Below, piece after piece: positions 255-5,444 of a DNA stretch of 5,575 nucleotides. This DNA comes from Sulfurimonas sp. (GTDB lineage Bacteria > Campylobacterota > Campylobacteria > Campylobacterales > Sulfurimonadaceae): contig JALSMC010000329.1 of the NCBI GenBank assembly GCA_026987995.1, forward strand, positions 1 to 5,575. Reading direction: 5' to 3'. The position numbers and the translations under genes are program-made. The notes below the pieces were generated by a model that had not been told where the DNA came from, ran no database searches, and worked only from the letters and a program-made list of their open reading frames with translations. Within the stretch, counting starts at the first letter, position 1. Every line of letters begins with the position of its first letter.

Positions 255-288
255 GTTTAAAAAAGTCCCTTAAAGAACTTCCCTACTT
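249..288. terminator. Nested inverted repeat at convergent gene ends, possible bidirectional terminator
   Basis: AAGTAGG at 249-255 is perfectly complementary to CCTACTT at 282-288. Inside it, AAGT (263-266) can pair with ACTT (277-280). The structure covers the comF stop codon and the last codons of the AsmA-like gene, which is the only place a shared terminator could sit because the stops are 2 bp apart. The following T tracts are weak on both strands (TTCTTTAG on the plus strand), so this is not a textbook intrinsic terminator. It could also be a chance repeat in AT-rich DNA. Confidence 0.35.
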
Positions 289-1726
289 CTTTAGTTATAG
301 CCTTAGTAGCCTCTTTCTTTATAAGCTCCTCTGCATCTATATCAACCTTAGGTTTATTTACATCTCCTGAGAGTTTTACCCCTATTGGGTTACCATTTGC
401 ATTTATAGCAATCTCTGAGTTGATAGTATTACTTTTAGTATTGAGTAGTGTATTTTTTGTCACTATTGAAGAACGGTTTGATTTTAAATCAAGAGAAGCA
501 ATGATTTTCTCTTTGTTTATTTTTGCATTTACATCACCACTAAATGTCTCTTTGTACATATTTACACTTGCATACTGCTTTGCAAGGTCAAGTACTTGAT
601 TTTTTGTAAACTTACCTTGTGAGAGTTTTCCATCAAATGTACCTTTAGCTTCCGCTAGATTATACACTACATCTGCATTTATCAGTGACTTAAATATTTT
701 TGGATAGAGTAGCATATCTAAAACTTTTAAAGTTTGCATCCCTTTAAGTTTTGCAGTAAAGTCATCATTATGAAGTTTTGCAACAAGTTTACCATCAGCG
801 ATATTTGAGTACATACTAAAGTCTAAATCCTCACCTTTTTTAACTTCTCCATTTGCAATAATATTACCTTTTAAATGTCTTTGTGACACAAAAAATAGTC
901 TGTCAAGATTATGTACTTTTACTTTATAGTCAGTCTCTAAAGCTTGTGTTGTGATGTTAAACTTAGCACTCTTTACATCTAGGTTCACAAGGTTTGAGTT
1001 GAAGTCAACTTTCGTCTCTACTGTATCTTTACTTAGTTTTGAACTTGTAACTGCGTCATAAGTGGTACGAGGCATCATTGACTCAAATCCATAAGTACCT
1101 GTAAGATACTTTGAATCAAGTTTCCCTTTATATATCTTAGAGTTTATCACACCATCAAGGTTTTGAACATCTGCATTTGTGATGTTTACATTTAAGTCAA
1201 AAAGTCCATCTGTATAGTGAGGCTGTTTGAGTACTGCTAAAACTTCTTCTATGACTAAACCTTTTATGTCAGCACTCACTTTAGATGGAGCAAAGTTCAC
1301 TAACTCAGCTCTAAATGTTGTTTTAGATGAAGCGATATCACTTTCTCCATCAACAACCAAGAGTTTTGCATCTCCAATAACTGTACCATTTAAGTGTAAG
1401 GGTATGTCTAATTCTGCTTGGAGTAAGTCTTTAAGTGTTTTTAACTCTTCTAAATTAACCTTATAAACAACATTCATCGATTGTGAAAATATCGAATAAT
1501 CACCCTTGATAGAGATGGTATTGTTTGTATTAAGTGTGATAAATATTTCAAAATCACTTAAACTTAGTCTATATACATCTAATGTTGAGTCAAGTTTTGT
1601 TTGCTCACTTATTTTCTCTTGTATTGTAGGTGCTACAAGCCCATTTCCAAATGGTGTAAAAACTAATACATATATACTTATCAGTAAAAAAACCACGATT
1701 CCAACTATCCATTTAACTATCTTCAT
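257..1726 (-). CDS. AsmA-like inner-membrane-anchored periplasmic protein
   Basis: The protein has 489 residues. It starts with a short positive N-terminus and one hydrophobic segment (about residues 6-24), followed by the T-P-F-G-N-G turn at 24-29, a layout typical of AsmA-family proteins. The remainder (about 30-460) is predicted periplasmic, rich in alternating hydrophobic/polar beta-strand patterns (long runs of N, D, K, T, V, I) and free of cysteine. The end carries an AsmA-type signature: a V-K-L-S-G-D-V-N-K-P-K-V segment (450-461), then a lysine-rich amphipathic helix (466-489) ending in K-G-L-F. AsmA/TamB-like proteins are thought to form lipid-transfer grooves or to affect outer-membrane assembly; the substrate cannot be told here. 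The ATG at 1726 is preceded by AAAGG at 1733-1737 with a 6-base spacer. It is the last gene of the unit, 21 bp after the kinase stop. Similarity is by pattern, so a lineage-specific family within the AsmA clan is likely. Confidence 0.65.
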   Translation of the reverse strand: MKIVKWIVGIVVFLLISIYVLVFTPFGNGLVAPTIQEKISEQTKLDSTLDVYRLSLSDFEIFITLNTNNTISIKGDYSIFSQSMNVVYKVNLEELKTLKDLLQAELDIPLHLNGTVIGDAKLLVVDGESDIASSKTTFRAELVNFAPSKVSADIKGLVIEEVLAVLKQPHYTDGLFDLNVNITNADVQNLDGVINSKIYKGKLDSKYLTGTYGFESMMPRTTYDAVTSSKLSKDTVETKVDFNSNLVNLDVKSAKFNITTQALETDYKVKVHNLDRLFFVSQRHLKGNIIANGEVKKGEDLDFSMYSNIADGKLVAKLHNDDFTAKLKGMQTLKVLDMLLYPKIFKSLINADVVYNLAEAKGTFDGKLSQGKFTKNQVLDLAKQYASVNMYKETFSGDVNAKINKEKIIASLDLKSNRSSIVTKNTLLNTKSNTINSEIAINANGNPIGVKLSGDVNKPKVDIDAEELIKKEATKAITKEVGKFFKGLF

Positions 1727-1747: not shown

Positions 1748-3208
1748 TTAAACAGGGATATATACTATAAATTTTGTACCCTTACCTTCTTGCGTTTGCA
1801 GTTCTATTGTTCCCTTTAACTTCTGACTCACTAAATTGTATGCAATATTAAGACCGAGCCCTGTTCCTCCAGCATTTCTTTTTGTTGTCACAAAAGGGTC
1901 GAATGCTTTTTTCTTTATCTCTTCACTCATCCCTGCTCCGTTATCTTCAAAACTTAATTCAAACACATTATTGACTAAATTCATTTTGATGCTTATTATA
2001 GCATTCTCTTTTTTAAATTCAAATGCATGAATTATTGCATTCTGGATAAGGTTATTTAAAAGTTGTGCAAAAGTACCAGGAAATGAGTAAATGATAATAC
2101 TATCAGTAGGTTCTATAATTACCTTTACTGGGATTGACTTAAGCTTAGAGTTAAAAGTTTGAACTACTTCTTTTGTGTATGCAACAATATCAAATTTTCT
2201 CTTATCTTCAATACTTTGGTCCACAGATATTTTTTTAAAACTTCTCACAAGGGTAGCAGCACTGTCAACACTTTTAAATAGCAACCTTGCAGTTTCATTA
2301 AGACTAGATATTGTCTCTTGGAGGTAAGATTTTGTCATTGTCCCATTGTTCATTCTTTTTTCTAACTCTGCCGTCTCTTGCTTAATAATACTGCTTCCTG
2401 TTATTGCATTGCCTAGTGGAGTATTTACCTCATGTGCAACACCACTTACAAGTGCACCTAAAGATGCCATTTTTTCGGATTCTATAAGTTGTGTTTGTGC
2501 TTTTTTAAGAGTATGAAGTGACTCTGAAAGTTCTTTTGTCCGCTCCTCTACTCTACTTTCTAAATTCGATGTAAATGCTTGCAATTTTTCTTGATGGTCT
2601 GTAATAGATTCCATTAATATATTAAAAGAACCATAGAGTTTTCCTATCTCATTTGTCGATTTATATTCCAACTTTGTATCATAGGTTTGTGTTTGAGATA
2701 CATACTCTAAACTCCTCGAAAGTTCTACAATAGGAGAAATCAATTGGCTTGAAACTTTATAAACAACAACACCCATTAGGATTAATAGCACTAAAGAAAA
2801 GGTAAGCATATCAGTTAAAGCACTATCACATTTATTCCCATCTTTTATGAACCAAGACTCTTGTACTTTATCTATTTTCCCTTTGATTACCCTAGTATAA
2901 TTTTCTTTTTTATACTCTCCAAAAAGAGAACCATCTTCAAGGTAAACTTGCACTTGTAGTATAGAACTGTTGCGTTTTAGGTATGCTAAAGAGTTTTCTA
3001 AACCTTCTTTATCAAGAAAAAGAATTGGGGCTATCGAATGGTTTGCTATTAAGCCTGCTTCTATCTTACTCTCATTAATAAATGATTTTGTTTGGTATGA
3101 ATACGATGTAATGAGGTTATAAGAAAAACCAGATACCAAAGTTAATATAACTACTGTAAAAAGTGAAAGATAAATTTGAGTTTTAAAAGAGAGGTTGTTT
3201 AAATGCAT
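1748..3208 (-). CDS. Sensor histidine kinase with CHASE8-like periplasmic domain, HAMP, HisKA-like and HATPase_c
   Basis: With the ATG at 3208 the protein has 486 residues. TM1 is about 11-32 and a periplasmic domain about 33-131. That domain contains an A-x-I-L-F-L-D...LAYL pattern and a V-Y-L-E-D-G-S-L-F-G-E-Y strand that resemble CHASE8, the sensor domain of YfiN. TM2 is about 133-151, HAMP about 152-205, and a coiled coil about 205-245. The H-box is G-V-A-H-E-V-N-T-P-L-G, with phosphoacceptor H259. The HATPase has an N-box (N386/N390), D-N-G-A-G at 422-426, D-P-F at 437-439 and G-G-T-G-L-G-L at 447-453. All catalytic boxes are intact, so an active autokinase is expected. The HEVNTPLG box and the spaced second helix fit the HPK4 group. 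There is no attached receiver; the REC-GGDEF-EAL protein two genes upstream is the only response regulator in the window and the likely partner. The sensor ligand is unknown; the YfiR-like protein, overlapping by one base, is the best candidate. Confidence 0.9.
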   Translation of the reverse strand: MHLNNLSFKTQIYLSLFTVVILTLVSGFSYNLITSYSYQTKSFINESKIEAGLIANHSIAPILFLDKEGLENSLAYLKRNSSILQVQVYLEDGSLFGEYKKENYTRVIKGKIDKVQESWFIKDGNKCDSALTDMLTFSLVLLILMGVVVYKVSSQLISPIVELSRSLEYVSQTQTYDTKLEYKSTNEIGKLYGSFNILMESITDHQEKLQAFTSNLESRVEERTKELSESLHTLKKAQTQLIESEKMASLGALVSGVAHEVNTPLGNAITGSSIIKQETAELEKRMNNGTMTKSYLQETISSLNETARLLFKSVDSAATLVRSFKKISVDQSIEDKRKFDIVAYTKEVVQTFNSKLKSIPVKVIIEPTDSIIIYSFPGTFAQLLNNLIQNAIIHAFEFKKENAIISIKMNLVNNVFELSFEDNGAGMSEEIKKKAFDPFVTTKRNAGGTGLGLNIAYNLVSQKLKGTIELQTQEGKGTKFIVYIPV

Positions 3209-3726
3209 CACTTCTCCTTCACAGGGTTTATAATTTTTGAAGCAGCACCAAGAAGTTTATAGCTTATACGGAGTTGTGACTTTTGTAAAGCTTCTTGATT
3301 TATCGCAATTTTAATTTTATTTTCTTTTAAATAGAGCGCTAGCATAAAACCATCATATAACTTGTCGATAGAGTCACTTACAAGTAAGGTATAACCCAAG
3401 TGTTTGTCTTTTAGCTTTTGGAGGAGATTTTTATCTATCTTTTGAGAGTATAGTATGTCACATTTATTGAACTCTTCTTTCTCGCCTATATTAAAGACTT
3501 TAATAGGTAATTTTTTGTACCTTTTACCTTTATATAAGTTTTGAAAGGATTTATACATATTCTTGTCTTTATATATACATATTTTAAAATCTTCACTACC
3601 TTGCCTATAAGTGATGAGCTGGCTTATTCTACTGAGGAGTACACCCTTTAAGGTTCTTTCCTTCTCATTTGCATAAGAAAAAGTTGTAAATAAAACTAAT
3701 AAACACATATATATTAAAAATTTCAT
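3208..3726 (-). CDS. YfiR/DUF4154-like secreted periplasmic protein
   Basis: The 172-residue product starts with a clear Sec signal peptide: K2, hydrophobic core 3-16, and likely cleavage after S-Y-A (residue 19), giving a mature protein of about 153 residues. The mature part matches the YfiR/DUF4154 pattern: an early L-K-G-V-L helix (26-30), the F-K-I-C-I-Y strand (47-52), the C-D-I-L-Y strand (89-93), an L-L-V-S-D segment (114-118), and the C-terminal I-K-I-A-I-N-Q-E-A ... L-R-I-S-Y-K-L-L-G-A-A stretch (138-162), which is the most diagnostic. YfiR in Pseudomonas is a periplasmic repressor of the diguanylate cyclase YfiN and responds to redox and envelope stress. Two cysteines (C50, C89) remain in the mature protein and could form one disulfide. 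The gene starts 8 bp after the response regulator stop, with a weak AAGAAAG site touching that stop, and overlaps the kinase by one base. Its partner is therefore probably the kinase sensor domain (inference). Confidence 0.75.
   Translation of the reverse strand: MKFLIYMCLLVLFTTFSYANEKERTLKGVLLSRISQLITYRQGSEDFKICIYKDKNMYKSFQNLYKGKRYKKLPIKVFNIGEKEEFNKCDILYSQKIDKNLLQKLKDKHLGYTLLVSDSIDKLYDGFMLALYLKENKIKIAINQEALQKSQLRISYKLLGAASKIINPVKEK
3214..3219 (-). promoter_or_regulatory. Ribosome binding site that decides the kinase start codon
   Basis: AAGGAG on the minus strand lies 5 bases before ATG (3208) but only 2 bases before an in-frame GTG (3211). The spacing favours ATG. The site lies within the end of the YfiR-like coding region, and the junction reads GTGATG, so the TGA stop of that gene (3210-3208) shares its A with the ATG. 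This indicates translational coupling of sensor accessory protein and kinase. Confidence 0.75.
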
Positions 3727-3734
3727 GACTTTCT

Positions 3735-5444
3735 TTATTTTATCAACTCTGGTTTAGGCTCACCAAAATAATAACCTTGTGCATAATCTACACCCATTTC
3801 TTTTATTATCTCATATACTTCTTTTGAGTGTACATACTCAGCGACTGTTTTAAAACCTATTTTTTTTGTAAAAAAGAGTATCGATTCTGTAATAATCTGA
3901 GAGCTTTCATCAGTCTCAATATCTTTTATAAAAGCACCATCTATCTTAATACTTTCATATTGATGCTTACCAAGTTGAGAAAAGTTAGAACATTCAGATC
4001 CAAAATCATCTATACTTAAAGAGTAGCCCAAGGCAGTAAGTTTACTTAGATTCTCTGTTGCGATTATATTACCATTCATACTTGTCTCTTCAAGAATCTC
4101 AAACACTACTCTTTTACTATTAATATTGTATTTTTTTGCAGTACTCGTGATATATTCGATAAAGTTGTTCTCAGCTAAATCATGATCTGTAATATTGATA
4201 GAGAACATTAAGTCATTATTTTGAAATACTTGACAAGATTTTTCAAAAACTCTTTGTGTGATTTGATGCAAATAACCAGCGTAACGTGCTGTTTTTAAAA
4301 AATGAAATGGAGAAAAAATTTCATCCTCATGTTTTAGACGGACTAGAGCTTCATACTTCACAATAGTATCTGTAGCACATTCAACAATTGGCTGAAAGTA
4401 AACTAGTATATTGTCGTGATTGAGTGCATGTGCTATTCTCGATGTCCATGAGTTGTTTTCTTCGATTAAAGAGAGGTAATCTCTTGATTCATCATAATAC
4501 TCTACTCTATTACGCGACACCTCTCTTGCTTGCCTGAGTGCTAGTTCTGCTTTTTGGATTATATTTCCAAGTTGATAGTTTACGATTCCTATACTTACAC
4601 TAATATACAGAGAAATTTCATCAACTTCAAAAGGAGAATTATCAAGAAGTGCCTTAATTGTTGCAACTTCATCTTCTAACAAGTCTTTATCACCAGACTG
4701 AATGGAAACTGCAAAGACATCAGCTTCAAGTCTATATAGGACCATACTAGGTCTTAACACCTGTTTTACAATTTTACTCATATGGATTAATACCTGATCA
4801 CCAACATTAAACCCATAAGCATCATTAAGAAGTGAGAACCTATCTATATCTATAAGCATAAGTGTTTGAGGTCTTGTGGAATCTAAATCATAGTTGAGTT
4901 GTACTCTATTTGGCAAAGTAGTGAGTTTATCTGTGACAAGTAGTTTATATATTTCATCTTTTTTATTGAGTAGTTCTAAAAGTTGTGTGTATTGGACCAA
5001 TGCTGTCCTAATAGTAGTATAAAGCTTATCTGTTGTTAATTCTGTTTTTTCTTTATAGTCATTAATATCGTAGTTGTCAATTACATAGCGCTCAGGAGCT
5101 TCACCCGGTTGCCCTGTTCTTATAATAATCCGACTCATATCATTGTGTAAGTCATTACGAATAAACTTCGCGATATCTAAACCTGAATTATTTGTTTCCA
5201 TAACTACATCAAGTAAAATAACTGCTATATCTTCGTGTAAAGCTAAGACTTCCCTTGCCTCTTTTTCACTATATATAGAGATGAATTCTATTTTCTTGTT
5301 ATTATATTTAAAGGACTTCAGTGCAAGTTTTGTAAAAGCATGTACTTCTTGATCATCATCAATAATTACTATTTTAAATGGTTCATGGAGTTCTGATTCA
5401 TCTTCTATTACTTCCGGGGCAAATATTAATTCATCATTATTCAT
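3735..5444 (-). CDS. Response regulator REC-GGDEF(degenerate)-EAL, predicted c-di-GMP phosphodiesterase
   Basis: The cytoplasmic protein has 569 residues and no membrane segment. The receiver (about 23-155) has the acidic cluster D29-D31, phosphoacceptor D79, T110 and K131. Its D-I-N-D-Y-K-E-K-T-E-L-T end resembles receivers usually followed by DUF3369, but here a GGDEF domain follows (about 165-318). That domain keeps L-T-T-L-P-N-R (174-180) and D199/N207/D208, but the signature reads E-A-D-V-F (240-244) instead of GGDEF. The RxxD inhibitory site is also lost (R231, M234). The EAL domain (about 333-565) looks catalytically complete: E365 in E-A-L, N417, E449, D479-D480, K500, D502, E536 and Q556. 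The expected role is phosphorylation-controlled c-di-GMP hydrolysis, with the GGDEF part perhaps acting as a GTP-binding or dimerisation module. It is the first gene of the unit. The ATG at 5444 follows a weak AGG-containing site; no better in-frame start precedes the receiver. Confidence 0.93.
   Translation of the reverse strand: MNNDELIFAPEVIEDESELHEPFKIVIIDDDQEVHAFTKLALKSFKYNNKKIEFISIYSEKEAREVLALHEDIAVILLDVVMETNNSGLDIAKFIRNDLHNDMSRIIIRTGQPGEAPERYVIDNYDINDYKEKTELTTDKLYTTIRTALVQYTQLLELLNKKDEIYKLLVTDKLTTLPNRVQLNYDLDSTRPQTLMLIDIDRFSLLNDAYGFNVGDQVLIHMSKIVKQVLRPSMVLYRLEADVFAVSIQSGDKDLLEDEVATIKALLDNSPFEVDEISLYISVSIGIVNYQLGNIIQKAELALRQAREVSRNRVEYYDESRDYLSLIEENNSWTSRIAHALNHDNILVYFQPIVECATDTIVKYEALVRLKHEDEIFSPFHFLKTARYAGYLHQITQRVFEKSCQVFQNNDLMFSINITDHDLAENNFIEYITSTAKKYNINSKRVVFEILEETSMNGNIIATENLSKLTALGYSLSIDDFGSECSNFSQLGKHQYESIKIDGAFIKDIETDESSQIITESILFFTKKIGFKTVAEYVHSKEVYEIIKEMGVDYAQGYYFGEPKPELIK

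Follow-up and report, generated by a model that had tools for sequence, protein, structure and literature searches.

A YfiR-family protein encoded between a CHASE8 histidine kinase and a predicted c-di-GMP phosphodiesterase regulator in Sulfurimonas

The stretch of Sulfurimonas sp. DNA analyzed here (the window, 5,575 bp) is one whole contig (JALSMC010000329.1; G000:C329) of a draft genome in 334 contigs that is 81.6% complete. Its minus strand carries three adjacent genes encoding a response regulator (RR), a YfiR-family protein and a histidine kinase (HK). According to the list of open reading frames (ORFs), Pfam and residue alignment, the RR (3735..5444, 569 amino acids) joins a REC domain with phospho-acceptor D79 to a degenerate GGDEF domain (RLEADVF) and an EAL domain with intact catalytic residues. 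The YfiR/DUF4154-family protein (3208..3726, 172 amino acids), recognized by Pfam, profile and fold, has an N-terminal hydrophobic helix and a C50/C89 pair that aligns with C71/C110 of YfiR. The HK (1748..3211, 487 amino acids if read from a GTG) comprises, by Pfam and alignment, a transmembrane segment, a truncated CHASE8 domain, a second transmembrane segment, HAMP, a HisKA domain of the HEVNTPLG type and HATPase_c. The original prediction, made from the letters of the window, had proposed that a YfiR-like protein, a CHASE8-like kinase and a REC-GGDEF-EAL protein form one unit; the three ORFs lie where it had placed them, each matches Pfam, and their order recurs elsewhere. Chance or mis-annotation as a source of the three-gene unit is ruled out by the profile scores and the conserved order.

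Only 8 bp separate the RR gene from the YfiR gene, whose end overlaps the start of the HK gene in a TGATG stop/start element preceded by a Shine-Dalgarno-like AAGGAG (3206..3219, minus strand). Given this overlap, the upstream AAGGAG and the short gap, the YfiR and HK genes are likely to be translationally coupled. An alternative ATG at 3208, behind the AAGGAG at 3219-3214, would give a kinase of 486 amino acids and is the likely start.

Membership of the 172-amino-acid protein in the YfiR family, proposed on sight in the original prediction, is borne out by a match to PF13689 (YfiR/HmsC-like, DUF4154) at 80.4 bits, where the cut-off is 24.9. Both an alignment profile and a structure model assign it the YfiR fold; the profile was needed to recognize this kinship, as phmmer with the single window sequence against the PDB returned only a chance match to a T-cell receptor. 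The protein is predicted to be periplasmic. Its C50 and C89 are the counterpart of the C71-C110 pair of Pseudomonas aeruginosa YfiR, with both cysteines present in 14 of 23 alignment rows and neither in the other 9. C110 is named in a PDB title, and C71 is presumably its partner.

The residues expected of a two-component pair are in place. The HK has the phospho-acceptor histidine (H260) and the ATP-site motifs (N391, D423 and GGTGLG of the N and G boxes), and the REC domain of the RR has D29, D30, D79, T110 and K131. In Pfam the HK matches HATPase_c at 77.5 bits and the RR matches EAL at 199.3 and GGDEF at 86. The RR was compared with nine others (L032, L056, L079, L080, L081, L082, L084, L085 and L086). 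The REC residues are kept in all 10, and so are nine residues (E, N, E, E, D, D, K, E, Q) that we take to be the EAL catalytic set. The catalytic glutamate of GGDEF is lost in 7 of the 10, including the window (EADVF), and is kept as G[IV]DEF in L084-L086; the GG[DE]EF active site of a diguanylate cyclase is absent from the window RR. Because the EAL residues are intact and the GGDEF domain is degenerate, the output of the RR is predicted to be hydrolysis of cyclic di-GMP (c-di-GMP), as the original prediction had anticipated.

The original prediction would have been undermined if the gene pair were not conserved, which is not what we found. The order RR/YfiR/HK (hereafter the triad) occurs in at least 12 distinct loci of Campylobacterota: the window, L032, L056, L079, L080, L082, L084, L086, L169 (where the contig ends inside the HK), L170, L173 and L176. 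This count is a lower bound, as 80 of 524 relatives were covered. It leaves aside loci on contigs already counted (L083 with L056; L171, L172 and L174 with L079, L080 and L081), L175, where the RR is cut at residue 415 with no YfiR or HK behind it, and L177, where the whole region and its neighboring genes are fragmented, probably through poor sequence. In a search of the genus, RR matches of at least 54% identity were present in 10 of 135 genomes, the window's own and partial or broken matches included.

A second prediction was that a sensing module had been exchanged between a c-di-GMP synthase and a kinase. Since earlier sensor-profile matches could have stemmed from the HAMP part, the comparison was made without HAMP, using the 7 of 24 unfused cyclase or GGDEF-EAL partners that had a clear sensor-profile match. 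The sensors of kinases related to that of the window match those of YfiR-partnered cyclases with a profile probability of 99%. The catalytic cores of the same kinases, in contrast to their sensors, group with kinases of the same genus that have unrelated sensors. Judged by these profiles and trees, the swap of sensor between cyclase and kinase is real at the level of domains, the kinase sensors being homologous to cyclase-borne CHASE8 and the cores being of different kinship.

The same kinase and regulator family is also found with other periplasmic partners. At three paralogous loci of the genus, PhnD-type binding proteins (PF12974, 155-166 bits) stand in the place of YfiR, either before the HK (L178, 2785-3651) or between RR and HK (L181, 4535-5383; L186, 4280-5128), and at L183, a locus of the window's genome, HK and RR are present with no gene for a periplasmic partner either between or next to them. 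These paralogs raise the possibility that the constant element is a Campylobacterota kinase/REC-GGDEF-EAL pair that takes varied periplasmic partners and recruited YfiR together with its sensor, rather than a rewired Yfi system, a view to which we give even odds. It gains from the kinase-core tree, in which 13 triad-type cores (this set and that of the RR tree include L081 and L085, which have no whole YfiR) form one clade (98; 94/92 in a second tree) with the cores of PhnD-partnered L181 and L186, of L090 (same as L181) and of L128. Inside this clade L084-L086 go with the PhnD-partnered cores of L181 and L186, and a single clade for all 13 triad-type cores is rejected (approximately unbiased test, p 0.0012). 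In the RR tree, however, all 14 triad-type regulators share one clade (98), from which the PhnD-partnered regulators are excluded. Moreover, sensor type goes with YfiR, so that the two views amount to one swap seen from opposite sides.

The joining of YfiR to a kinase was probably not a single event. In a tree of 61 YfiR proteins the 12 from triads fall together (88, not a starred branch), and the kinase label requires six changes, at least two of them forced by starred branches. The cores of gammaproteobacterial YfiR-associated kinases fall outside the triad core clade, and those of L034/L065/L067 and L037/L043/L045 lie far outside it on long branches; because of these positions, YfiR and kinases were probably brought together on more than one occasion.

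Replacement of YfiR by PhnD-type proteins also bears on how YfiR itself might act. After YfiR, the nearest structural neighbors of the model of the window protein are substrate-binding proteins (3lft, 12.4; 3lkv, 12.3; 8wgl, 10.4), which would fit a relative of the ABC substrate-binding proteins that binds a small-molecule ligand and signals its presence to the kinase instead of acting as a stoichiometric repressor. This seems unlikely, since the parts of the published account that we draw on have YfiR working by protein-protein contact (PMC3375315).

Together these observations favor a pathway in which an envelope signal would pass through periplasmic YfiR and the kinase to an RR that likely destroys c-di-GMP. 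YfiR would gate the CHASE8-HAMP kinase by binding its sensor, perhaps through a hydrophobic patch like that mapped in P. aeruginosa. The kinase would then phosphorylate the RR at D79 and thereby switch the EAL enzyme, altering c-di-GMP hydrolysis. In relatives that keep a TonB-dependent receptor, this may control the line from the outer membrane. For the central proposition, that YfiR gates the kinase and the kinase switches a predicted c-di-GMP phosphodiesterase via D79, we estimate a probability of roughly 0.7 from the sequence comparisons.

Several observations weigh against this proposition. Two of 14 loci keep RR and HK without a whole YfiR: L081 has none, and L085 retains a remnant made up of the signal-peptide region and the tail (7828-8004). 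YfiR thus appears dispensable in some lineages. At L081, which L174 also covers, YfiR has been lost and the RR/HK pair kept. The triad sensor profile scarcely recognizes, or does not recognize, the sensors of two other Campylobacterota YfiR-associated kinases, L034 (1.5 bits) and L043 (10.8 bits). Matches to HAMP (19.3) and HisKA (18.6) on the HK and to Response_reg on the RR (25.8, cut-off 30.2) are all below Pfam cut-offs. The DgcN/YfiN model is absent from the best 25 NCBIfam models for the HKs of the window and L079; the NCBIfam YfiN model does match other, related kinases. What we take to be the second disulfide of P. aeruginosa YfiR, C145-C152, has no counterpart in the window protein, whose only cysteines are residues 8, 50 and 89; we do not regard this pair as defining the family. 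Finally, the window HK lacks 38 consecutive residues of its sensor, as described below.

How often DUF4154 genes lie beside kinases, a count that the original prediction had called for, was surveyed in two groups. Among 397 Campylobacterota genomes, DUF4154 was found at an E-value of 0.001 in 34 (30 above the cut-off), giving 48 matches. Their partners, assigned by custom profiles with Pfam on a part, are cyclases (18), GGDEF-EAL proteins (6), adjacent kinases (7), kinases beyond a TonB-receptor gene (5) and SpoIIE phosphatases beyond such a gene (2); six are fused to GGDEF (4), HK-REC (1) or SpoIIE (1), and 4 are unclear. In a class sample of Gammaproteobacteria around Pseudidiomarina, 15 of 114 genomes gave 25 matches, partnered by kinases (12 matches at 11 loci) or GGDEF-EAL proteins (5), with 8 unclear, 7 of these in one genome. 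A kinase is the commonest identified YfiR partner in this sample, and the pairing is ordinary there. The kinases of L234 and L239 in this sample gave no sensor match.

The proteins downstream of such kinases vary. At the gammaproteobacterial loci L089 and L092 the regulators are REC-DUF3369-HD proteins, that of L089 with an HD-GYP motif, which would be a different way of reaching the output predicted here, c-di-GMP hydrolysis; in L115 and L225 the regulator is REC-DUF3369, and the ORF examined gave no match to HD. YfiR-hybrid kinases are paired with REC-PAS-GGDEF, a cyclase, at L240 and L244 and with an OmpR-type regulator at L105, and L065 has REC-SpoIIE. Because of these four loci, an output opposite to that of YfiN is not a rule of YfiR-kinase pairs. 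Single-chain forms also occur: DUF4154 is fused to a SpoIIE phosphatase in L036 (4622-6535), to GGDEF in L050, L068, L069 and L070, and to HK-REC in L051 (3957-6509), one of 8 proteins with the DUF4154-HK-REC form.

Of 47 Campylobacterota loci, 44 have a gene for a TonB-dependent receptor no more than 3 kb from YfiR, counting both strands, and at 40 of them the distance is within 300 bp. The receptor profile used here was itself built from the loci under study, many of which carry YfiR. The exceptions are the window, L074 and L077; L051 was left out of the count for want of a match to the custom YfiR profile, and a receptor lies beside it too. No receptor was found within 3 kb of the kinase at 69 control loci of many phyla without YfiR, where the profile may miss unlike receptors, nor near the kinase at any of 11 paralog loci of the same genus. 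A receptor is beside YfiR in 14 of 25 cases in the gammaproteobacterial sample. The adjacency is thus seen in two phyla, and the receptor is a possible outer-membrane partner. Other arrangements in such operons include CHASE8 with a SpoIIE phosphatase domain (L055, 8684-10378; L060, 2233-3765) and two YfiR genes plus two TonB-dependent receptor genes before one kinase (L221, 4769-8064).

Gene neighborhood suggests a possible role for the receptor in YfiR signaling. A wider proposal, which we offer tentatively and consider somewhat less probable than not, makes YfiR the periplasmic step in a general line from the outer membrane to the cytoplasm, running from TonB-dependent receptor to YfiR to CHASE8 sensor. 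The output behind the sensor would be exchangeable: a cyclase, a GGDEF-EAL protein, a kinase acting on a phosphodiesterase regulator of the EAL or HD type, a SpoIIE phosphatase, or a direct fusion. Such a line would resemble FecA acting via FecR, except that it would feed c-di-GMP and phosphorelays, and in the kinase pair of Campylobacterota YfiR may even be traded for a PhnD-type protein.

Among the triads, receptors are whole in L032, L056, L082 and L176, cut to 256 amino acids in L173 and fragmentary in L080, and none was seen near the triad in L079, L084, L086 and L170; the contig of L169 ends too early to tell. The window has no receptor gene. That one lies just beyond the contig end, 131 bp before the RR, is unlikely, as none is seen in 17.6 kb of L079 or 14.5 kb of L170, which share the window's downstream neighbor and in which the genes before the RR presumably encode GrpE and DnaK. 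The window genome holds no close match to the triad receptor at its 82% completeness: the best-scoring candidate is 27% identical and lies at the other YfiR locus, and another is 33% identical over 211 residues. The genome's second YfiR gene has a TonB-dependent receptor gene on one side and a gene for a GGDEF-EAL protein on the other (L078, G000:C235, 3875-8728).

The window kinase departs from its family in its sensor. The original prediction of a CHASE8-like domain held in that PF17152 matches at 30.5 bits (cut-off 27), but the match covers profile positions 8-81 of 102 and the end of the domain is missing. Alignments with relatives place the loss, 38 residues in frame, at the junction S130|A131 (2821..2824, about 2822|2821, minus strand). 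In the structure model of the L079 kinase these residues span the final two strands and the beginning of the helix that leads into the second transmembrane segment. The block is present in all eight close relatives compared (P0010-P0017, from 119 other proteins among 120 of 2854 matches listed), of which P0010 is otherwise 94% identical to the window HK, as well as in 13 other aligned kinases and three loci: L170, L171 and L169, the nearest genome, as far as its contig extends. The gap is either a strain deletion or an assembly error; an origin through direct repeats was looked at and not shown.

If the gap is real, the step from YfiR to the sensor is doubtful in the window genome because the CHASE8 domain is cut short, while the unit as a family is unaffected. 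Because the window has no receptor gene, its genome has no close receptor match and the sensor as assembled lacks its last two strands, the window kinase is probably locked in a single state or unable to answer YfiR normally. These same features, together with the loss or breakage of YfiR in L081 and L085, could mean that the window copy is decaying, its kinase constitutive or dead and the operon on its way out of the lineage. Yet all three frames are open with catalytic residues intact, and in so fragmented a genome the gap could be an assembly error; we lean modestly against decay.

Among the closest known systems is YfiBNR of P. aeruginosa (AwsXRO, TpbB), which shares with the window a YfiR having a C71/C110-type cysteine pair, a membrane partner of the CHASE8/PAS-HAMP type that carries a similar hydrophobic motif, and a c-di-GMP output. 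The window differs in that the partner of YfiR is a histidine kinase rather than a YfiN-type diguanylate cyclase, and in that the output enzyme resides on a separate regulator with predicted hydrolytic activity. A Pfam scan of five ORFs of the window revealed no gene for a YfiB-type OmpA/PAL lipoprotein. Although the original prediction left open whether the arrangement had been described, kinase outputs for YfiR have been in print since 2012. In the passages concerned, PMC3375315 reports that divergent Yfi operons mostly lack YfiB and that YfiN often carries GGDEF-EAL, HPT or a sensor histidine kinase in place of its GGDEF domain; it also proposes a modular YfiR-YfiN[PAS] core. Such homologs resemble the window in placing a YfiN-type sensor on a histidine kinase beside YfiR, whereas those passages describe no REC-EAL regulator, TonB-dependent receptors or Campylobacterota. 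NCBIfam, too, has curated models for such a gene pair, NF053591 (YfiR_like_TOL0243) and NF053592 (HK_near_YfiR_like). The window proteins score 58 bits against a cut-off of 125 and 60.7 against 194, respectively, so membership is rejected and kinship alone is claimed. In the literature searched, which included few subscription journals, we found no separate phosphodiesterase regulator, TonB-receptor neighborhood or exchange with PhnD-type proteins for YfiR-kinase systems, and nothing on YfiR in Sulfurimonas; papers pairing YfiR with TonB or its receptors were incidental, judging by titles. Periplasmic binding proteins also act with sensor kinases in LuxP-LuxQ and XylFII-LytS, where LuxP and XylFII are two-lobed proteins of the sugar-binding type; the kinase families and outputs differ from those of the window.

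A fourth gene on the same strand (257..1726), 21 bp after the HK gene, encodes a 489-amino-acid protein of unassigned family, which matches nothing in Pfam and no NCBIfam model above its cut-off. A gene for a 489-amino-acid protein also follows the HK in L079 and L170. The window gene is possibly cotranscribed with the HK, but lies outside the signaling unit. A PADLOC scan of this protein and YfiR gave no match, and a promoter/terminator scan of the window was uninformative (33 promoter-like sites versus 28.7 ± 5.5 in shuffled sequences).

In a single kinase family of this genus, a change of sensor type accompanies a change of periplasmic partner, and the YfiR-CHASE8 pair may be viewed as a portable sensing part. 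If the sensor gap is real, the window locus would offer a natural experiment on the function of the CHASE8 domain. If the receptor link is true, it would name the upstream input of many YfiR systems that lack YfiB and would tie nutrient or metal uptake to c-di-GMP.

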